Assembly (NCBI RefSeq): GCF_017874395.1
Contig: NZ_JAGGLJ010000003.1
Coordinates: forward strand, 1 to 64,000
DNA length: 64,000 bases
Reading direction: 5' to 3'
Source: Peptoniphilus stercorisuis
GTDB lineage: Bacteria > Bacillota > Clostridia > Tissierellales > Peptoniphilaceae
In this document: positions 29,241 through 64,000 of the stretch, piece after piece
Layout of the letters: the number at the start of each line of letters is the position of its first letter
How positions within the stretch are numbered: the stretch's first letter is position 1
The notes under the pieces: model-generated
Database searches by the model: none
Told to the model about the DNA's origin: nothing
Seen by the model: only the letters and a program-made list of their open reading frames with translations
Program-made: the position numbers and the translations under genes

Positions 29241-30080
29241 GGATAATATGTATTTTGGAAGGAATATATGGTTTTGTAGATATATACATTGTAATTCGGA
29301 GCATTGGGGACAATGCTCCCTACGTTTTTTAATGGAGATTTTAATATATCAAATATTTATATGTTCGGACCTTTTCGTAGGGACGCATTTCCAAGGCGTC
29401 CATTCCCATAATGTTTTATATAATAAATAAAATATGTATGTTGGAAGGAATCTATGATTGTGTGAATATGTGCATTTCAAAATGATTATTGTAAAAAAGA
29501 TTTAGATGTGCGGACCTCTTTGTAGGGACGGTTGTCCCTAACCGTCCGTTTGGAATTGTATGTATTAATAGAGGAACGAATCTATGGTTTTGTAGATATA
29601 TACATTGTAGTTCGGAGCATTGGGGACAATGCTCCCTACGTTTTTTAATGGAGATTTTAATATATCAAATATTTATATGTTCGGACCTTTTCGTAGGGAC
29701 GCATTTCCAAGGCGTCCATTCCCATAATGTTTTTAAATAAATAAAATAAAAATGTATGTTGGAAGGAATCTATGATTGTGTGAATATGTGCATTTCAAAA
29801 TGATTATTGTAAAAAAGATTTAGATGTGCGGACCTCTTTGTATGGACGGTTGTCCCTAACCGTCCGTTAGGAATTGTATGTATTAAAATGACCTTTAAAT
29901 GATAAGGGTTTTAACTAATTTAAGATTATATAAATACATACATTGTATTCGGAGCATTGGGGACAATACTCCCTACTCCCTACATTTTTCAACAAAGGTT
30001 GATATCTTTTAAAATATGTTGATATATAAATAAAAAATATAAAATTATGCACAGATTATTTTAATTTTAAATACTTATAA
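29241..30080 (+). repeat. REP repeat region A with a 316-base tandem duplication
   Basis: No gene. Seven GC-rich hairpins in AT-rich DNA: class 3 (GGAGCATT-N6-AATGCTCC) at 29298-29323, 29614-29639 and 29951-29976, all with GTAG on the minus strand; class 1 (GGACGC-N9-GCGTCC) at 29377-29401 and 29693-29717, and class 4 (GGACGGTT-N6-AACCGTCC) at 29522-29547 and 29840-29865, with GTAG on the plus strand (the last reads GTAT). The stretch 29262-29577 is repeated almost exactly at 29578-29890. Orientation of class 1 is opposite to all copies at 53-62 kb. Confidence 0.85.
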
Positions 30081-53083: not shown

Positions 53084-53376
53084 TCAAATATATCATTCAA
53101 AGATAATTATAATACATATCATTTAAATTGACGCCTTGGAAATGCGTCCCTACGCTAACATTGTGTATTGTAAGGAGCGTTGTCCCCAACGCTCAGCATA
53201 CAACGTATGTATTTAAATAATAAAAAATTAGTTTCAAATGTATTTTTTGAAAATATCCCCCGACGTAGGGAACTCTCTCCGAGAGGTCCGAACAAATAAA
53301 TCATTTTACAATAATCATTTTATAATGTATATATTTACACAATCATAGATTTAAAAAATAAAAAAGGAGAATAAAA
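53084..53376 (+). repeat. REP repeat region B
   Basis: Class 1 hairpin at 53129-53153 (GTAG on minus strand; first base of the stem mutated), class 3 variant GGAGCGTT-N6-AACGCTC at 53170-53195 with GTAA instead of GTAG, and class 2 (GGAACTCTC-N3-GAGAGGTCC) at 53265-53289 with GTAG on the plus strand. Right-hand flank 53290-53350 matches the conserved linker seen after other class 2 arms. Confidence 0.82.
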
Positions 53377-54621
53377 ATGATTGGATATGCTTGTTTACCA
53401 GTAGGATTTAGAGACTATTCATTTAAAAAAGTATTAAAGAAAAATCTAAACTACGAAAACTTAAAAATAGCAATAAAAAACAACCTAAACTCATTAGACA
53501 AAATATTAGAATACAATATTGAAAATAATATTAAACTATTTAGAATATCATCAGATTTAATACCCTTTGGCGACAAAGCCTTAGAATACATTGACTGGAA
53601 AAAAGAATTTAAATGTGAATTTGAGAAAATAGGACAAAAAATTAAAGAAAACAACCTAAGAGTATCATTTCACCCAGGGCAATATACAGTTCTAAACTCA
53701 CCAAAAGAAGAAGTTGTAAAAAATACAACAATGGATCTAAAATATCATTGCAATGTACTAGATCTTATGAACTTAGACAAAAACCATAAAATAATATTAC
53801 ACGTAGGTGGAGTATATGGAAATAAAGAATTAGCCACAAAAAGATTTATAGAAAACTATAAAAAACTAGATACAAATATAAAAAATAGACTAGTAATAGA
53901 AAATGATGATAAATCTTATAATGTAGATGACCTTTTATATATTAATTCACAAATAGAAATACCACTTGTATTTGACAACCTTCACAATGAAATAAATCCA
54001 GCAAAAACAAAAAGAAATGAAGAAGAAATAATAAAAATATTTGCAAAAACTTGGAAAAAAAGTAACGGAAAACAAAAAACACATTACTCACAACAAGACA
54101 AAAACAAACAAATAGGATCACATTCAAAAACCATAGATATTTTAGAATTTAAAAAATATTATGAAAAAATAGACCAAGAAATAGACATAATGCTAGAAGT
54201 AAAAGACAAAGACCTATCATCAATAAAAATTAATAATCTATTTAAAAATCATGTAAAATATTTAGAAAAAGAATGGGCAAAATATAAATACAATATACTA
54301 GAACATAGTCCAAAAAACTATTTTGAAATAAGAGAACTATTAAAAGACAGGCAAAACTATAATATCTTAGAATTTTATGAACTAATAGACAGCTCCTTAG
54401 AAAAAGAAATAGAAAAAAATAACTTTATAAATAGTTCAGATCATGTTTGGGGATACTTTAAAAAAATAGCAGAAGAAAAAGAAATAGAAAAATATCAAAG
54501 ATACAAAGAAAAATATTTAGAAAATAAAATAACTATAAAACCAATAAAAAAATATCTTTTACAACTCTCAGAAAAATATAAAAGTGAGTATCTATTAAAA
54601 TCCTATTACTTTAATATATAA
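53377..54621 (+). CDS. uvsE: UV DNA damage endonuclease (UvsE/UvdE family)
   Basis: TIM-barrel endonuclease that nicks 5' to UV photoproducts and other lesions. Metal-binding motifs are visible: RISSDLIPFG, SFHPGQYTVLNSP, HVGGVYGNKE, ENDDKSYNVDDLL, VFDNLHNEINP and HYSQQDKNKQIGSHS. At 414 residues it is longer than the usual core of about 300; the extra C-terminal hundred residues are a Lys-rich helical region of unknown role. Shine-Dalgarno AAAGGAG. REP repeats lie on both sides. Confidence 0.92.
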   Translation: MIGYACLPVGFRDYSFKKVLKKNLNYENLKIAIKNNLNSLDKILEYNIENNIKLFRISSDLIPFGDKALEYIDWKKEFKCEFEKIGQKIKENNLRVSFHPGQYTVLNSPKEEVVKNTTMDLKYHCNVLDLMNLDKNHKIILHVGGVYGNKELATKRFIENYKKLDTNIKNRLVIENDDKSYNVDDLLYINSQIEIPLVFDNLHNEINPAKTKRNEEEIIKIFAKTWKKSNGKQKTHYSQQDKNKQIGSHSKTIDILEFKKYYEKIDQEIDIMLEVKDKDLSSIKINNLFKNHVKYLEKEWAKYKYNILEHSPKNYFEIRELLKDRQNYNILEFYELIDSSLEKEIEKNNFINSSDHVWGYFKKIAEEKEIEKYQRYKEKYLENKITIKPIKKYLLQLSEKYKSEYLLKSYYFNI

Positions 54622-55007
54622 AACATTATGGGAACAGATGCCTTAGAAATGCGTCCCTACATTATGTAATCAAATTAAACTTTTGATATATATAATATCT
54701 CCGACGACGTAGGGAACTCTCTCCGAGAGGTCCGTACATCTAAATCTTTTTTACAATAATCATTTTACAACATATGTATTTACACAACTATGGATTAGTT
54801 GAAATGTATATCATTCAAAGATTGTTATAATGCATACCATTTAAACGGACGGTTAGGGACAACCGTCCCTACAAAGAGGTCCGTACATCTAAATCTTTTT
54901 ATCATTATTATATATACACAACCATAAATTTCTTAATATTCCATAATATAACAATTATTTGTTTTTAAAAATCTTAAAATTTGATATTATATAAGCAGGT
55001 GAAAAAA
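54622..55007 (+). repeat. REP repeat region C
   Basis: A REPIN-like pair (54636-54733, listed separately) and a class 4 hairpin at 54847-54872 with GTAG on the minus strand, directly followed by a class 2 right flank (AAAGAGGTCCGTACATCT). The 113-base stretch 54734-54846 resembles the conserved inter-REPIN linker. A possible promoter for the next gene lies at 54959-54990. Confidence 0.82.
54636..54733 (+). repeat. REPIN-like unit 1
   Basis: Left arm class 1 (54636-54660, stem decayed at two positions) and right arm class 2 (54709-54733), GTAG ends inward, 48-base spacer. Confidence 0.78.
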
Positions 55008-57026: not shown

Positions 57027-57662
57027 ATGGAAGATAGAAAAAGATTAGAAATAATAGAATATGGAAACAAAATCTTAGAGGAACACCTGACATTTGGATC
57101 AGGTGGAAACCTAAGCCTAAGATATGACGAAAATATGCTAATAACACCATCAGGCGTACCCTATGAAGAACTTCAAAAATTAGAAATAGTATATATGAAC
57201 TACGAAGGCGAAGTTATAATAGGAAAACTAAAACCATCAAGCGAATATATGATACATTCAAAAATCTATCAAAAAAGAAAAGACATAAATGCAATAATAC
57301 ACACACATTCAAAATATATAAATGTATTAGGAGCAATAGGAGAAGACCTAAAAGCCGTACATTACCTAATAGCATCAAGTGGGGATTCAATAGTAAAAGT
57401 GGCACCCTATGAAACATATGGCACAAAAGAACTAGCAAAAAGAGCATTAGAGTACTTAGAAAATAGAAAAGCAGTAATACTTGCAAACCATGGACTAGTA
57501 GCCTGTGGCGAAAACTTAGAAGAAGCACTACAAATATCAAGAGACCTTGAATTTTGTGCCTTCGTATATGTAAAAGCATTAGCAGTAGGAAAAGTAAACA
57601 TAATACCAGACGAAAAAATTAAAGAAGTAGTAGAAAAATTTAAAACACATGGACAAATATAA
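57027..57662 (+). CDS. fucA: Class II aldolase, L-fuculose-phosphate aldolase type
   Basis: 211 residues from ATG 57027 (TTGGAG upstream). Zinc ligands His92, His94 and His155 and catalytic Glu73 fall at the same numbers as in E. coli FucA. SGGNLSLR and TPSGVPYEEL form the phosphate site. Cleaves sugar-1-phosphates to dihydroxyacetone phosphate and lactaldehyde or a related aldehyde. No fucose genes are adjacent, so the physiological sugar may differ. Confidence 0.88.
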   Translation: MEDRKRLEIIEYGNKILEEHLTFGSGGNLSLRYDENMLITPSGVPYEELQKLEIVYMNYEGEVIIGKLKPSSEYMIHSKIYQKRKDINAIIHTHSKYINVLGAIGEDLKAVHYLIASSGDSIVKVAPYETYGTKELAKRALEYLENRKAVILANHGLVACGENLEEALQISRDLEFCAFVYVKALAVGKVNIIPDEKIKEVVEKFKTHGQI

Positions 57663-57667
57663 AAAGT

Positions 57668-57697
57668 AGAAGTAGGATAAAACCTGCTTCTTTTTTG
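57668..57697 (+). terminator. Terminator after fucA
   Basis: Nine-base stem AGAAGTAGG / CCTGCTTCT with one wobble, AT-rich loop, T6. Confidence 0.85.
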
Positions 57698-57975
57698 TTG
57701 TATATCGTTAAAAGTACATCTAAATCATTTTACAATAATTATTTTGTAATGAACGTATATACACAGTCATATATTAGTTTCAAATTACATTGTTTAAATA
57801 ATTTTATAAATCATCATATGAATGGACGCCTTGGAAATGCGTCCCTACACATACATTATATAATCAAATTGAACTTTTAATATAAAATATCCCCGACGTA
57901 GGGAACTCTCTCCGAGAGGTCCGTACATTTAAATCTTTTTAAAATCATCATTTTACAACATATATATTCACACAA
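57698..57975 (+). repeat. REP repeat region D
   Basis: Begins with a right-flank/linker segment lacking its hairpin (57713-57823, matching the linker at 58741-58850), then a REPIN-like unit (57824-57922) and its right flank. No gene. Confidence 0.82.
57824..57922 (+). repeat. REPIN-like unit 2
   Basis: Class 1 arm 57824-57848 (CTAC on plus strand at 57845-57848), 49-base spacer, class 2 arm 57898-57922 starting GTAG. Both stems intact apart from the A-G mismatch common to class 2. Confidence 0.88.
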
Positions 57976-57997
57976 TAAAAAAGAGCCAAAGGCCCTT
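57976..57997 (-). terminator. Terminator of mgsA
   Basis: On the minus strand GGGCC-TTT-GGCTC followed by TTTTTT. Confidence 0.75.
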
Positions 57998-58466
57998 ACT
58001 CAATAACCAAACTTTTCCTATCATTACTTAACTTATCATAATCAATAACCTGCCTATTATACTCAGAATTCATAAAAGGAGAAGAAAGTAAAAAATCAGC
58101 AGTACTAACATTATTAGCAATAGGAATATTATACAAAACACCAATCCTATTAAGAGCCTTAACATCAGGATCATGAGGTTGCGCCTCAAGAGGATCCCAA
58201 AAGAAAATCATAAAATCAACATTTCCCTCAACAATCCTAGAGCCAAGTTGCTGATCACCACCAATAGGACCAGACTTAAAAGCAAAAACATCAAGACCAG
58301 TTTTCTCAGAAATCAAAGTAGCAGTAGTACCAGTACCACAAAGATTATGATTTTTTAAAATATCCTTATTTCTCAAAACCCAGTCAATAAGCATAGACTT
58401 CATATGATCATGAGCAACAAGAGCAATATTTTTCTTTTTACTTGAAACAATATCTTTATATTCCAT
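57996..58466 (-). CDS. mgsA: Methylglyoxal synthase
   Basis: Converts dihydroxyacetone phosphate to methylglyoxal and phosphate. Catalytic Asp71 (GPIGGDQQLG), His19 (VAHDHMK) and His98 (QPHDPDV) match E. coli numbering; 156 residues. AGGAGG ribosome site. Its silent sites are mostly T-ended (GGT, GCT, ACT, GTT), unlike the A-ended minus-strand hyd genes in the same window. Confidence 0.95.
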   Translation of the reverse strand: MEYKDIVSSKKKNIALVAHDHMKSMLIDWVLRNKDILKNHNLCGTGTTATLISEKTGLDVFAFKSGPIGGDQQLGSRIVEGNVDFMIFFWDPLEAQPHDPDVKALNRIGVLYNIPIANNVSTADFLLSSPFMNSEYNRQVIDYDKLSNDRKSLVIE

Positions 58467-58641
58467 AAAATACCTCCTAATAATAAATTACCCAATAAAA
58501 ATAATATATATGTAAAAATAAAGTAAGAAATAGGTAAAATATTTATAGTAAAATAAATATATAATATCTAAATTATTTAAAATCATTTAAAATCATAGTT
58601 AATGCACATATTGAATTGATTATATAAACCATTATATGAAC

Positions 58642-58740
58642 GGACGCCTTGGAAATGCGTCCCTACGCTTACACTGTATAATCAAATTAAATTTTTTATA
58701 TAAAATATCCCCAACGTAGGGAACTCTCTCCGAGAGGTCC
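58642..58740 (+). repeat. REPIN-like unit 3
   Basis: Class 1 arm 58642-58666, 49-base spacer, class 2 arm 58716-58740. Confidence 0.88.
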
Positions 58741-58850
58741 ATACAAATAAATCATTTTACAATAATCATTTTGTAATGAACGTATATACACAGTCATATA
58801 TTAGTTTCAAATTACATTATTTAAATGATTCTATAAAACATTATAGGAAC

Positions 58851-58948
58851 GGACGCCTTAGAAATGCGTCCCTACGCTTACACTGTATAATCAAATTAAA
58901 TTTTTTATATAAAATATCCCCGACGTAGGGAACTACTACCAGAGGTCC
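58851..58948 (+). repeat. REPIN-like unit 4
   Basis: Class 1 arm 58851-58875, 49-base spacer, class 2 variant arm 58925-58948 whose loop side reads GGAACTACTACC instead of GGAACTCTCTCC and is one base shorter. Confidence 0.85.
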
Positions 58949-59015
58949 GAACATTTAAATCATTTATCATTATCAACACACACATCAAATTGATTATATA
59001 AACCATTATATGAAC

Positions 59016-59116
59016 GGACGCCTTGGAAATGCGTCCCTACGCAAACATTGTGTAATCAAATTAAACTTTTGATATAAAAAATATCCCCGACGTAGGGAAC
59101 TCTCTCCGAGAGGTCC
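59016..59116 (+). repeat. REPIN-like unit 5
   Basis: Class 1 arm 59016-59040, 51-base spacer, class 2 arm 59092-59116. Confidence 0.88.
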
Positions 59117-59277
59117 ATACAAATAAATTATTTTAAAATCACCAACATACACATCAAATTGATTATATAAAACATTATATGAACGGACGCCTTGGAAATG
59201 CGTCCCTACAAAGAGGTCTATACAATTAAATCATTTAAAAATTATCTTTAAAGGGTATGTAGAAATTAGGTGATTAA

Positions 59278-59724
59278 ATGTATAAAAATAGAAAATCAAT
59301 AAGATTAAAAGATTATGATTATTCCAAAAATGGATATTATTTTATAACAATAGTTACAGAAAATAGAGAAAAATATTTGTCAGAAATTAATTGTAAGAAT
59401 GAAGTAATATTATCGGAAATAGGAAAAGAAATAGAAAATTCAATATTATTTATAAATAGTAATCAAATAAATGTAGATAAATACATAATAATGCCAAACC
59501 ATATACATATTATATTAATATTAGAAAATTCAGAAAAATCAATTATAGAAATAATAAAGAATTTTAAAAAATTCACATCAAATAATATCAAGCAAAATTA
59601 TAATAAAAAATTATGGCAAAAATCTTATTTTGATAAAATAATAAGATCAGAAAAACAATATTTAGCATTATGTGAATATATTGAGAGTAATCCATTAAAA
59701 TGGAACTTAGATAAATATTATTAA
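59278..59724 (+). CDS. REP-associated tyrosine transposase (RAYT), Y1 HUH family
   Basis: Intact 148-residue protein. The HUH motif is His75-Ile-His77 within MPNHIHIIL. Tyr117 in WQKSYFDKIIR is the likely catalytic Tyr, and the C-terminal YIESNPLKWNLDKYY is typical of RAYTs, relatives of IS200/IS605 TnpA. N-terminal RLKDYDYSKNGYYFIT also fits. RAYTs nick single-stranded REP hairpins next to a GTAG tetranucleotide. The gene is flanked by a class 1 arm (59185-59209) and a class 2 arm (59779-59803), with dense REP repeats on both sides. Shine-Dalgarno AGGTGATT precedes the ATG. No IS terminal structures other than the REPs were seen. Confidence 0.88.
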   Translation: MYKNRKSIRLKDYDYSKNGYYFITIVTENREKYLSEINCKNEVILSEIGKEIENSILFINSNQINVDKYIIMPNHIHIILILENSEKSIIEIIKNFKKFTSNNIKQNYNKKLWQKSYFDKIIRSEKQYLALCEYIESNPLKWNLDKYY

Positions 59725-60382
59725 AAGGAATATACATTGTATAATCAAATTAAATTGTATATTTAAAATATCATAGACGTAGGGAACTCTCTCCGAGAGA
59801 TCCGTACAACTAAATCATTTTACAATAATCATTTAGGAATACACGTATCTACATAATCATATATTAGTTTCAAATTACATTATTTAAATGATTCTATAAA
59901 CCATTATATGAATGGACGCCTTGGAAATGCGTCCCTACGCAAACATTGTGTAATCAAATTAAACTTTTGATATAATCACAAACATACACATCAATATGAT
60001 TATATAAAATATTATGGGAATGGACGCCTTGGAAATGCGTCCCTACGCAAACATTGTGCAATCAAATTAAACTTTTGATATAATCACAAACATACACATC
60101 AATATGATTATATAAAATATTATGGGAATGGACGCCTTGGAAATGCGTCCCTACGCAAACATTGTGCAATCAAATTAAATCTTTTTAAAATTATTATCAA
60201 CATACATATCAAATTGATTATACAAAATATTATATGAACTGACGCCTTGGAAATGCGTCCCTACACTTACACTGTATAATCAAATTAAATTTTTTATATA
60301 AAATATCTCTGACGTAGGGAACTCTCTCCGAGAGGTCCGTACATATATATCTTTTATAAGGTAATACACATATCCACACAAT
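59725..60382 (+). repeat. REP repeat region E, right of the RAYT gene
   Basis: Class 2 arm 59779-59803 whose left neighbour (59739-59778) matches the REPIN spacer; class 1 arms without partner at 59914-59938, 60022-60046 and 60130-60154; then a REPIN-like unit 60240-60338. The stretch 59939-60046 repeats as 60047-60154 with a single mismatch (108-base period), and 60155-60264 is a diverged third copy. Confidence 0.88.
60240..60338 (+). repeat. REPIN-like unit 6
   Basis: Class 1 arm 60240-60264 (first stem base T), 49-base spacer, class 2 arm 60314-60338. Confidence 0.85.
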
Positions 60383-60405
60383 AAAAAAAGGATGGCTAAC
60401 CACCC
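60383..60405 (-). terminator. Terminator of yitT-like gene
   Basis: Minus strand GGGTGG-TTAG-CCATCC followed by seven T. Confidence 0.88.
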
Positions 60406-61268
60406 TAATCAAAAGTAAACCCAAGCCCCGAAACCTCACTAACCTGTGAAACATAAATAAAAGCACTAGGATCAATCTTATTAATAAAATTTCTAAGCTT
60501 TATGTAATCCTTTCTGTCCACAACAGTAGTCAAAATCTTCCTTTGCTCATTAGAATATCCACCAATAGCCTCATAAATAGTACTTCCACGATAAAGCTTA
60601 ACAATAATAAAATCATTAATCTCATCAAGACAATCAGAAGAAACAGTAAGACTAAACTTAGAACCAAAACCAGCAAGAATCCTATCAACAATCAGAGAAT
60701 TTACAAAAACTCCAAAAAGCGAATACATAGCAATCTTCGGACCATACAAAATAAGAGCCCCAATAGTAATAAGCCCATCACTAATAGCAAGCCCAAAACC
60801 AAAAGACATATGCGAATACTTTTCAATAATCTTACCAATAATATCCGTACCACCAGTCGAAGCACCCTCATTAATAACAAAACCAACACCAATAGCCTGA
60901 ATTAAAATTCCAAAAAATAAATTAATGAAAATATCATCAGTAATAGGAGTAGTAATAGGAGTAAACCTCTCCAAAATACCTAAGAAAAAAGACATAGCAA
61001 AAGTTGAATAAATAGTATAAGCACCAAAAACCTTACCAATAGTAGCAAGTCCCACAGCAAAAAGTATAAAATTTATTAAAAATAAAATAACACTAATTGA
61101 CAAATTTGGAAAAATAGTAGCAATCAAAATCGCAAGACCAGAACTCCCACCAGCAGCAAGATTATCAGGTGCAAGAAAAAAGTGAAGCCCAGCAGCAATA
61201 ATAAAATTGCCAAGATTTACAATAAGAAACCTCTTAAAGCGTCTATAAGTTGATAAATTAGATTTCAA
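60405..61268 (-). CDS. YitT-family membrane protein
   Basis: About 287 residues. Five to six membrane helices in the first 190 residues (FLIVNLGNFIIAAGLHFFL, GGSSGLAILIATIF, ILFLINFILFAVGLATIG, LFFGILIQAIGVGFVINEGASTGGTD) and a C-terminal soluble DUF2179 domain (IYEAIGGYSNEQRKILTTVVDRKDY). The start is uncertain: TTG 61268 has AGGGGG seven bases upstream, while GTG 61277 is too close to it. Transport function is presumed but unproven for the family. T-ended silent sites, as in mgsA. Confidence 0.9.
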   Translation of the reverse strand: MKSNLSTYRRFKRFLIVNLGNFIIAAGLHFFLAPDNLAAGGSSGLAILIATIFPNLSISVILFLINFILFAVGLATIGKVFGAYTIYSTFAMSFFLGILERFTPITTPITDDIFINLFFGILIQAIGVGFVINEGASTGGTDIIGKIIEKYSHMSFGFGLAISDGLITIGALILYGPKIAMYSLFGVFVNSLIVDRILAGFGSKFSLTVSSDCLDEINDFIIVKLYRGSTIYEAIGGYSNEQRKILTTVVDRKDYIKLRNFINKIDPSAFIYVSQVSEVSGLGFTFD

Positions 61269-61443
61269 AAGAAACACCCCCTACTAATTATAATTTGAAA
61301 AGATATTGGCAACAACCCCCAAAAAAATTATATATATAAAAAATCTTCTGACGTAGGGAACTACTACCAGAGGTCCGAACAATTAAATCATTTATCATCA
61401 TCAACACACACATCAATATGATTATATAAACCATTATATGAAC

Positions 61444-61542
61444 GGACGCCTTGGAAATGCGTCCCTACACTTACACTGTATAATCAAATTAAACTTTTAA
61501 TATATAATATCTCTGACGTAGGGAACTCTCTCCGAGAGGTCC
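61444..61542 (+). repeat. REPIN-like unit 7
   Basis: Class 1 arm 61444-61468, 49-base spacer, class 2 arm 61518-61542. Confidence 0.88.
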
Positions 61543-61652
61543 GAACAACTAAATCATTTTAAAATTATCGTTTTGTAATTCACATATATACACAGTCATA
61601 TATTAGTTTCAAATTACATTGTTTAATTGAATGTATAAACCATTATATGAAT

Positions 61653-61754
61653 GGACGCCTTGGAAATGCGTCCCTACGCAAACATCGTGTAATCAAATTA
61701 AATTTTTTATATATATATAATATCTCTGACGTAGGGAACTACTATCAGAGGTCC
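61653..61754 (+). repeat. REPIN-like unit 8
   Basis: Class 1 arm 61653-61677, 53-base spacer with an extra TATA, short class 2 variant arm 61731-61754. Confidence 0.85.
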
Positions 61755-61904
61755 ATACATCTAAATCTTTTTAAAATTATTATCAACATACATATCAAAT
61801 TGATTATATAAAACATTATATGAATGGACGCCTTGGAAATGCGTCCCTACGATTACACTGTATAATCAAATTAAATTTTTTATATATAATATAGCTCCAT
61901 ACAT

Positions 61905-62153
61905 ACCATTCAAACACACATTATTTAAATTATTACCTTCAAAACACTCCCCACAAAAATTAACTAAACTTAACAATATATTTAATAAACCCATATTTTC
62001 AAAAGATTCAACATGACAAAATACATAATAAATCTCAAAAATCAAAAATTATTAACAAAACCTAAAAACCATACAACCATTGAAACTACCACATTTAAAA
62101 GGTAAAATGACAACAATATTTCAAAAAAAGCCCCTTTGTAACACAACTGTAAT
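61905..62153. other. A/C-rich intergenic region
   Basis: No gene or repeat. The plus strand is rich in A and C with very few G, a marked local skew. Confidence 0.5.
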
Positions 62154-62331
62154 TTTACATTTAAGGGCAGTAGTGTATAATATTAATGAACGAGGAACTT
62201 GACAACTAAATATTTTTTAAGCAAAGATATTTAATGTCTACCTCGAAGATATGTTGTTTAGAATAACAACAAGCAAAAGTTTTAAGACTTTTGTAGAGTC
62301 TACAAAAATTTTAAGGAGGTCGAAAGACATT
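62154..62331 (+). promoter_or_regulatory. Promoter and long structured leader of S-layer-type gene
   Basis: TTTACA (62154-62159), 16-base spacer, TATAAT (62176-62181). The predicted 5' leader is about 140 bases with several possible stems: CGAGG (62191-62195) with CCTCG (62241-62245), GTTGTT / AACAAC, and TTTTGTAGA / TCTACAAAA. A strong AAGGAGGT lies at 62313-62320. Long structured leaders that stabilise mRNA are common for S-layer genes. Confidence 0.6.
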
Positions 62332-64000
62332 ATGAACAATAAGAAATTCTTATCTCTAGTACTATCACTAGTAATGGTACTAGGAACATTCACAAGTGTC
62401 TTCGCAGCTTCTACTACTGACAAAAAAGACGAAAAAACAACTGAAACAAAAGTTGAAAAAGTTGAAAAAATTGTTGGTAAAGATAATAAAATTCAATATA
62501 TTATCGACAAGAAGTTTGTTGAAGGATACGAAGACGGAGATTACGGATACGATAAAAATATCAAAAGATCTGAAATCACTAAACTTTTAGTTTTTGCTAA
62601 TGGTCATAAAGAACTATCAGAAAAACTACAAGGATCAATGAAAGTTTACTCAGACGTTGACACAGCTTTCTGGGCAAACGGAGTAATCACAGTTGGAACT
62701 ACAGTTCCATCAAGCTCAAATAACCAAGCTATGCTACAAGGATATCCAAACGGAACTTTCCTACCAGAAAGAAACGTAACTTATGCAGAACTTGCTAAAA
62801 TGTTAGTAGTACTTGCAAAAGAAGACCTAACAGCAGACATGGTTAAAACAGCTAACGCTAACTGGGCATCACAATGGATGACTTGGGCAGCAGAACTAGG
62901 AATCCTAGATGACGTTACAGTTGCAAACTCAGACGCTTTTGCTACAAGAGCAGATGCATTCACTATGCTTTACAACGCTCTTTACAAAATGCAAAACTTC
63001 AAAAGAGAAGCAGCTAATGACGAAATCGGAGTTCTTTCAAAATTATCAAACAAAGTTCTAACTCTTAACCAAGATTCAGAACAAGAATACAAAATTACTG
63101 ATGATACAGTATTCGTTAAACACAATGTTAACGGAGAAAAAGAAAAAGATAATGATAATGTAATTAAAGTTTCTACAATGAAAGACGCTGAATTCTACAA
63201 AGGTTCACTAGTAAGAATTATGTATAATGACAAAAAAGAAGTTACACATATTCTTGAACTAGGAAACCCTGAAGAAGGAGCTCTTAAAAATAGAAAAGAT
63301 GACGCAATTACACTTGGACATGAAAAAGCAATAACTTTAGTTGAAGACAATGCTAGATGGGATAATGTTGCTGATGCTACAATCTCAACTAAAATGTTTA
63401 AAACAAATGTTATTGATAAAGAAGAATTTGCAACAAAAGGTATGAAGTATAGTGACTTAGATGATAATACTATTACTTCTTATGTTAAATTTGGATTTGA
63501 TGGAAAAACTGATGTAAACAAATTAACTTTTGTTTATGTAGAAGAACAAAAAGATAGAGCTGCTAATAGCGAAATTAAACTTAATACTGAAAATGTAATT
63601 AAAGTTGATGATGAAGACGCTAGAGTATTCATTGCTAACCCAGCTAACAACCAAATGAAAGAAGTTAAAGACGTTTATGAAGCAATCAGACTTATTGGTT
63701 ACAGAGATAATCTTGATTTCGTTCCTAACGTATATGTAGGATATGACGACAACTCAAGCAATACTGCTATTGGAACAATTGGTTCAAAAGCAGAAGCGAA
63801 AGTTATCGTATTTAACATTGTTTCAAAAGACAATGACATGGCTGAAACTTACAGAGTAGTTAACGAAGTTACTTCAAAAGGTGACGTAACTCTTGAAAAC
63901 ACTGATGGTAAAAAATTCGATGAAAATCAATTTAAAAATACTAACAGAATGCCATTCAACTCATTCGAAAAACTTGACGTTGTAGAATACACTTATGACT
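62332..64000 (+). CDS. S-layer-type SLH-domain protein, 3' end beyond window
   Basis: At least 556 codons, still open at the window edge. Signal peptide 1-25 (cleavage after SVFA). SLH-like repeats follow at the N-terminus: about 45-80 (FVEGYEDGDYGYDKNIKRSEITKLLVF), 105-165 (WANGVITVG ... LQGYPNGTFLPERNVTYAELAKMLVVL) and 180-218 (WASQWMTWAAELGILDD ... TRADAFTMLYNAL), then a long Asp/Lys/Asn-rich region likely exposed on the surface. Frequent C-ended codons (AAC, TTC, GAC) unlike neighbours suggest high expression. It is a candidate major S-layer protein. Confidence 0.88.
   Translation, partial: MNNKKFLSLVLSLVMVLGTFTSVFAASTTDKKDEKTTETKVEKVEKIVGKDNKIQYIIDKKFVEGYEDGDYGYDKNIKRSEITKLLVFANGHKELSEKLQGSMKVYSDVDTAFWANGVITVGTTVPSSSNNQAMLQGYPNGTFLPERNVTYAELAKMLVVLAKEDLTADMVKTANANWASQWMTWAAELGILDDVTVANSDAFATRADAFTMLYNALYKMQNFKREAANDEIGVLSKLSNKVLTLNQDSEQEYKITDDTVFVKHNVNGEKEKDNDNVIKVSTMKDAEFYKGSLVRIMYNDKKEVTHILELGNPEEGALKNRKDDAITLGHEKAITLVEDNARWDNVADATISTKMFKTNVIDKEEFATKGMKYSDLDDNTITSYVKFGFDGKTDVNKLTFVYVEEQKDRAANSEIKLNTENVIKVDDEDARVFIANPANNQMKEVKDVYEAIRLIGYRDNLDFVPNVYVGYDDNSSNTAIGTIGSKAEAKVIVFNIVSKDNDMAETYRVVNEVTSKGDVTLENTDGKKFDENQFKNTNRMPFNSFEKLDVVEYTYD

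Follow-up and report, generated by a model that had tools for sequence, protein, structure and literature searches.

The stretch of DNA analyzed in the current study (the window, 64,000 nucleotides from Peptoniphilus stercorisuis) contains a small Y1/HUH transposase gene surrounded by GC-rich hairpins, which raises the question of whether the two belong together as a REP/RAYT-like system, as was proposed in an earlier note made from the sequence alone. The genome (1.795 Mb in 35 contigs) has 28.6% G+C and carries a hydF gene, which fits a low-GC anaerobe. The results described below indicate that the system is very probably a REPtron, i.e. one RAYT (TnpAREP) gene together with a cognate REP population. 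Its RAYT/REP core is a known type of system, found here in a lineage where little of it has been described.

The transposase gene, which has a G+C content of 17%, was intact as claimed, and its product matched the Pfam family Y1_Tnp (E 5.3e-11). The protein passed the cut-off of NF047646, the NCBI model for REP-associated tyrosine transposases, although only narrowly (82.8 vs 80 bits), and that cut-off was reached in only three of the 130 family genomes searched. It did not reach the cut-off of the IS200 model NF033573 (29.2 vs 55 bits). Proteins of this kind are referred to below as group A, and a sister group of Y1 proteins as group B. All 11 aligned group A proteins matched the RAYT model at E <= 0.01, and nine of them also matched the IS200 model, more weakly. 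When a group A profile was compared with solved structures, the best match was the E. coli REP nuclease structure 4ER8 (E 1.7e-12), with IS200/IS605 transposase structures ranking behind it (5e-9). In the protein tree, which was poorly resolved, the window RAYT fell outside the IS200 group and outside the sister Y1 group, in line with the earlier proposal; group B and the IS group each formed one side of a well-supported branch, while group A itself was poorly resolved and may not form one clade. An AlphaFold model run without an alignment reached a pLDDT of 51 and was set aside.

Alignment with E. coli RayT, in which the catalytic residue is Y115 (PMC8266576), places the catalytic tyrosine of the window RAYT, by homology, at Y134. 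The residue named earlier, Tyr117, falls within the segment WQKSYFD and was a wrong choice. The HUH motif is H75-I-H77, and N138 is also present. The residues contacting GTAG in E. coli are given as W94, Q95, E100, H101 and R104 (PMC6006769), and their equivalents in the window protein are W113, Q114, D119, K120 and R123. Four of the five are kept, W113, Q114 and R123 being identical and D119 for E100 being a published substitution; K120, at the position of E. coli H101, is not among the substitutions named in the part of PMC6006769 concerned. Across the 11 group A proteins M72, P73, H75, H77, K97, W113, Q114, R123, Y134, I135 and N138 were invariant. The tryptophan and the arginine were missing in all 11 group B proteins, seven of which retained the glutamine. 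The motif NP(L/V)(R/K)xG, defined on gammaproteobacterial RAYTs, reads NPLKWN in the window protein, so that NP, L and K are kept without the glycine, which is also missing from the other aligned group A proteins.

The genome has one copy of the RAYT gene; further Y1 matches were to a broken gene and to a different, IS200-like gene. The broken gene, with several stop codons, lies at G000:C1:35402-35753 (loci L002 and L004; G000 is the window genome), and the IS200-like gene at C9:70071-70406. No empty site for the RAYT was found in the same-genus genomes having both mgsA and yitT, the two genes being non-adjacent there.

The transposase gene lies in the densest hairpin cluster, as had been noticed, and the region 58610-60382 contains 13 hairpins of the described classes, every one with GTAG directly 5' of the stem. 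In the whole window the pattern GTAGGGA-N12-16-TCC was matched 30 times (two matches overlap, giving 29 places), compared with a mean of 0.12 and a maximum of 2 in shuffled sequence. The four stem classes mentioned in the earlier note were recovered, together with minor variants. GTAG conservation also held when the head was left out of the search: among 58 stems of any class found with up to 3 mismatches in C3:1-80 kb, on the contig that carries the window, 51 were headed by GTAG, six by GTAA and one by GTAT. The hairpins are thus multi-copy, GC-rich and GT(A/G)G-headed, control patterns giving 0-1 matches. The foot of the window REPs is GGA/TCC, with A-T as the third pair. When folded as single-stranded DNA, all four tested classes lay below their own shuffles (z -3.3 to -5.9). 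Class 2/2b REPs can also form an alternative hairpin that uses the preceding ATCCCC and puts GTAG near the loop (window 57889-59100).

The arrangement of the hairpins is summarized in the table below. Neighboring REPs less than 200 bp apart formed 18 TT pairs (GTAG ends inside), 17 HH pairs and 6 HT pairs, and the TT spacers measured 48-53 nt in 12 of the 18 cases. One TT pair of inverted REPs encloses the RAYT gene. Downstream of the RAYT stop codon the usual TT spacer occurs again (88% identity between 58670-58912 and 59733-59975), and at 29.5, 54.9 and 59.2 kb CTAC is joined to the 3' half of a class 2 REP. The distant array at 29.3-30.0 kb contains a tandem duplication of ~316 bp and, at 29844, a class 4 copy headed by GTAT. 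The arrays are mosaic, of the kind known from BIMEs and REPINs. A CRISPR was also considered for the repeats and was rejected because their orientation and stem class alternate. A short direct repeat (GTAGGGAGTAGGGAG, window 29951-29983) is present at the foot of one REP, possibly a trace of strand transfer or slippage.

Table. Location of the RAYT gene, the REP hairpins and the SLH-domain gene (window positions; C3, contig coordinates)
Feature	Position	Strand	Remarks
RAYT (TnpAREP-type Y1 HUH transposase)	59278..59724	+	148 aa, intact ORF
Class 1 REP (GTAG GGACGCATTTCCAAGGCGTCC)	59185..59209	-	Upstream partner of RAYT-enclosing inverted pair
Class 2 REP (GTAG GGAACTCTCTCCGAGAGATCC)	59779..59803	+	Downstream partner of RAYT-enclosing inverted pair
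Three inverted pairs, GTAG ends inside	58642-58740, 58851-58948, 59016-59116	class 1 (-), class 2/2b (+)	Inner spacers 49, 49 and 51 nt
Class 1 REPs	59914, 60022, 60130, 60240	-	Spacing 108, 108, 110 nt
Class 2 REP	60314-60338	+	Closes array 59914..60338
Isolated inverted pair	57824-57848, 57898-57922	class 1 (-), class 2 (+)	Spacer 49 nt
REP array	61353..61850	61353(+), 61444(-), 61518(+), 61653(-), 61731(+), 61826(-)	Between yitT-like and SLH genes
REPs	53129..54872	53129(-), 53265(+), 54636(-), 54709(+), 54847(-)	GTAA-headed copy at 53174(+)
REP array, classes 1, 3 and 4	29298..29976		Between glycerate kinase and hydF genes
SLH-domain gene	62251..64000, continuing to C3:64899	+	Flanked by REP arrays (57.8-61.9 kb, 65.0-68.3 kb)

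The earlier note had the repeats spread over at least 33 kb of the window, which is right (29.3-61.9 kb). A search of the full genome gave 54 pattern matches, compared with one for the reversed control pattern; 48 of them (47 distinct) lie within C3:29.3-68.3 kb, i.e. 39 kb extending beyond the window, three lie at C1:82.0-82.4 kb, and three singles resemble chance. The population is therefore restricted to about 2% of the genome rather than spread throughout it, a point that the note had left open. All 25 copies of the class 1 stem (up to 3 mismatches) lie in C3:29.4-68.2 kb, and 20 of them are identical. This tight clustering suggests that most REP spread occurs in cis or through local recombination, or else that the population is young or shrinking. 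Local REPs have been described in some marine gammaproteobacteria and in Thauera (PMC2817692), and T. roseum is a further published case (PMC3733652).

The association of transposase and repeats was examined by searching the 130 family genomes with NF047646 and 249 genomes of the order with the group A profile. Nineteen of the 249, including the window genome, gave a strong match (E below 1e-26). A hairpin scan detected GTAG hairpins at 16 of these 19 group A loci, compared with none of 17 group B loci (Fisher p = 1.3e-7) and none of 8 IS200 loci (p = 7e-5); the scan took in 1.5-kb flanks in one run and whole loci in the other, one genome (G144) was scanned twice and counted once, and some IS200 control coordinates are approximate. 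In the remaining three group A loci (G134, G135, G099) repeated GTAG-headed imperfect hairpins were recognized by eye only, the scan being insensitive to long-loop or AT-rich REPs. Within 10 kb, two group B loci had hairpins at more than 1.5 kb, one with GTAG in G030 and two with GTGG in G126.

The stems differ from genome to genome. In 18 REP types (those of the window and of ten other genomes) a GG/CC foot was present in all, while the rest of the stem varied, and the foot was GGG/CCC in the relatives G035, G153, G110 and G151. Other REP types, in G058 and in G099/G100, are without the GG/CC foot. With patterns fitted to the cognate stems, 106 matches were found in G151 (control 8), including a dense group adjoining its RAYT, and 32 dispersed matches in G100 (control 2). 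The pattern discriminated poorly in G035 (70, control 35) and G153 (75, control 45), and was unsuited to G110, G134, G135, G149 and G019. So many different stem families within one lineage provide material for testing recognition rules.

Six loci from three families (L157-L160, L164 and L165) have in common a RAYT block of ~340-670 bp with 86-98% identity, the flanks of which differ between families and are shared by L158 and L164, of one genus. A block so similar in three families with differing flanks suggests horizontal spread. In L157-L160 and L165, REPs lie within the RAYT reading frame, which is broken in L160 and L165; these REPs entered the count because whole loci were scanned. Distant relatives were found in a genome contig collection (one), in plasmid and phage collections (five protein matches) and among viral contigs (15, of which nine loci were viewed as ORFs only).

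The partnership proposed in the earlier note is thus supported by the RAYT model, the 4ER8 profile match and the 16 of 19 vs 0 of 17 loci, with some evidence against its strict form. Repeats equally common in genomes without the transposase had been named as counter-evidence. The class 1 stem had no copies in four same-genus genomes (search at up to 3 mismatches), and no group A RAYT was found in any of these; one genome, G002, gave only a weak match to the RAYT model (E 3e-7), and another of the four, G003, has REPs with stems of its own (see below). G028 speaks on the other side, as this family genome, rated 100% complete, contains 77 GTAG repeats dispersed genome-wide (control 1), and neither the NF047646 search nor the group A profile search gave a RAYT match in it. 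REPs can therefore outlive a RAYT or exist without a detectable one, and the G028 hairpins represent either an orphan REP population or the partners of a very divergent RAYT. They are of the GTAGCGGAAGC type (L236). A few GTAGAGGGGGC hairpins were also found near the SLH gene in G138 and G025, which are without a group A RAYT.

A sister genome, G003, gave further information on the stems. GTAG hairpins were present at two of its contig ends, adjoining orthologs of window genes (C3:27.0-27.8 kb and C3:30.1-31.3 kb), and the interval between is the one occupied in the window by the array at 29.3-30.0 kb; the stems in G003 are different ones. The evidence that REPs occupy a common interval in both genomes is strong but not final, because the two G003 contigs are unjoined. 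The scan itself recorded two GTAG hairpins in one contig end and none in the other, the rest coming from the stem-pairing comparison described next and from a pattern with high background in other genomes. No RAYT was found in G003, a genome that is 76% complete and has its arrays at contig ends. In a set of 11 hairpins of one length (2 from the window genome and 9 from G003, including one much decayed copy), 76 of 99 stem cells were Watson-Crick pairs, compared with 51 on average and at most 64 in 2000 shuffles. Nine of the 11 keep an A.G mismatch at stem position 7, where G151 and G110 have C.T. A stem bulge is described as necessary for activity in E. coli (PMC8266576); an internal mismatch that stays constant in an otherwise changing stem is a candidate for a comparable recognition mark.

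In the proposed mechanism, the RAYT would most likely bind the single-stranded GTAG hairpin, cut near it using Y134 and join the freed strand elsewhere, and one resident transposase would in this way copy the REP pairs, which would behave as small non-autonomous elements. We infer binding, cutting and mobilization because of the homology of the protein to the tested enzymes of E. coli, Stenotrophomonas and Marinomonas (PMC8266576). Three other readings of the locus were weighed against a REPtron. It is hardly credible that the gene and hairpins are an IS200/IS605 insertion sequence, i.e. a TnpA flanked by its end hairpins, together with degenerate copies of these ends. Such a TnpA belongs to the same protein superfamily, IS200/IS605 ends also bear hairpins with a 5' guide tetramer (PMC8266576), and the IS200 model was weakly matched; that match, however, stayed below the model's cut-off, the gene is single-copy rather than part of a multi-copy unit, and its neighbors are of the mgsA and yitT types rather than tnpB. 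Instead of one left and one right end there are about 50 hairpins in two orientations, and none of the eight IS200 loci has GTAG hairpins.

The hairpins might instead be RNA elements (terminators, attenuators or mRNA stabilizers) unlinked to the transposase. They are intergenic, REPs of other bacteria are described as influencing termination and mRNA stability (PMC6006769), and the region 57500-62200 contains 11 terminator-like sites, compared with 2.2 in shuffles. Eight of these 11 arise from an alternative pairing of the 5' end of class 2/2b REPs on the opposite strand, followed by a T-rich tail, and for this reason the REPs may act at the RNA level, either in addition to being mobile or in place of it. 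As a full explanation this is very unlikely, given that no T run directly follows the REP stems, class 1 yields no terminator-like site, no Rfam match was found in the window, and the repeats track the transposase group across genomes. More weight, though still well short of an even chance, is given to a link that is only historical, in which the transposase no longer works and the REPs are relics whose numbers grew through tandem duplication and recombination. The local distribution of the REPs, the tandem units of 108 bp and 316 bp, and the REPs of G028 and G003 without a detected RAYT all agree with such a history. The RAYT, on the other hand, is intact with its catalytic residues present, and the identity of 20 of the 25 class 1 stems suggests recent copying or correction.

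Read as a REPtron, the locus resembles gammaproteobacterial systems such as that of E. coli rayT (Nunvar 2010, PMC2817692) in having a single RAYT gene between inverted GTAG REPs, stems of several classes, arrays of mosaic build, and the HUH, Tyr and W/Q/R residues. It differs in that the REPs are local to 39 kb (as in the marine gammaproteobacteria and Thauera cases of that paper) and the gene has so low a G+C content; in the protein, the C-terminus is shorter than that of E. coli RayT and the NP motif is without its glycine. GTAG REPs and the absence of a C-terminal extension are also features of TnpAY1 subclass 2.4 as described by Quentin 2018 (PMC6006769), which gives REP insertions inside the RAYT gene as a hallmark of the subclass. 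The likeness extends in relatives to the double-foot REPs of G058 and to the RAYT genes mentioned above that have REPs inside the reading frame. The window RAYT gene, unlike the subclass as described there, has no inserted REP, and the hairpin foot has A-T instead of G-C as its third pair.

Inverted REP pairs with a few set spacer lengths, heterodimers and mosaic arrays are likewise described for REPINs and BIMEs (Bertels 2011, PMC3116915; Di Nocera 2013, PMC3733652). In the window, however, the tight pair with conserved spacer (48-53 nt) is TT, with the GTAG ends inside, whereas PMC3733652 describes HH as privileged in most REP families, with TT in families 1, 3, 19 and 24, and conserved spacers mainly for HH pairs. 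The same paper reports GTAG repeats in Proteobacteria, Cyanobacteria, Chloroflexi and the PVC group, and PMC2817692 reports qualifying RAYTs only from gammaproteobacteria. Two Geobacillus papers use "RayT", in the passages concerned, as a label for COG1943. No GTAG REPs of the present lineage appeared among the literature matches listed, and an earlier notice of RAYTs in the lineage is possible. The current results extend RAYT/REP partnerships to a low-GC anaerobic lineage, the GTAG repeats of which are not reported in the relevant sections of PMC3733652.

The REP arrays lie on both sides of an SLH-domain (S-layer type) gene, which matched Pfam SLH over one short stretch (E 6e-7) and gave no NCBIfam match at 1e-10. 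A homolog (E <= 1e-40, with the best seven candidates at most scored per genome) was found in 43 of the 130 family genomes. Forty SLH loci from 39 of these genomes were inspected (G108, G031, G126 and G127 were left out), in stretches of up to 16 kb without a RAYT and up to 20 kb with one. A group A RAYT was found at a distance of 0.8-3.2 kb from the SLH gene in six genomes belonging to four genera (G000, G151, G153, G035, G134 and G135), on the same strand in all six, upstream in three and downstream in three; the copy in G135 is broken. A seventh genome, G149, has its RAYT and SLH gene on separate contigs, with REPs near both contig ends. GTAG hairpins were detected by the scan on both sides of the gene in G000 (32), G151 (30), G153 (19), G035 (20) and G149 (11), while the count was 0 in G134 and G135 because their REPs are of the imperfect type. 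Among 33 SLH loci without a group A RAYT, 32 had at most two hairpins (0 in 23, 1 in 4 and 2 in 5), and the remaining one, in G028, had five.

The chance that a random site lies within 3.5 kb of the SLH gene is ~0.6%, a figure that does not count independent events because the genomes are related. Group B Y1 genes also occur at the SLH locus, on the strand of the gene, in three genomes of one genus (G141, G143 and G144). A strong SLH neighbor was not seen in the stretches viewed of the four family genomes with a group A RAYT and no SLH homolog (G019, G110, G099 and G100; G099 and G100 have a weak SLH neighbor, and the G110 stretches are only 3-4 kb), nor in those of the eight group A genomes of the order outside the family. 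G153 and G035 belong to one genus, yet the side of the SLH gene on which the RAYT lies differs between them, which suggests that it moved within the locus. A tentative reading, which we hold to be possible rather than probable, is that RAYT and REPs settle preferentially at this locus, with REP arrays around the gene, through targeting of single-stranded DNA exposed at the locus or because the REPs are useful there, whether as mRNA ends, as insulation or in generating variants of the surface protein by recombination. The main competitor of targeting or benefit is still old inheritance followed by many losses. The SLH-adjacent recurrence is the part worth following, as it offers a way of asking why domesticated transposases persist, be it by targeting, by a benefit to a surface gene or by old inheritance.

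The arrays flanking the SLH gene are mirror images of each other, class 1 (-) and class 2 (+) on the left (57824-61850) and the reverse on the right (C3:65.0-68.3 kb, L062). The same was observed in G151, and not in G035. Recombination between such mirror arrays could therefore invert the SLH gene in G000 and G151. Shorter SLH-type genes or fragments lie downstream of the REP arrays, at C3:68468-71999 (L062). Located between REP arrays are also a gene for a small sigma factor and an Amidase_2 gene (C3:66518-67571, L062); many of the inspected family stretches have a homolog of at least one of the two close to the SLH gene.
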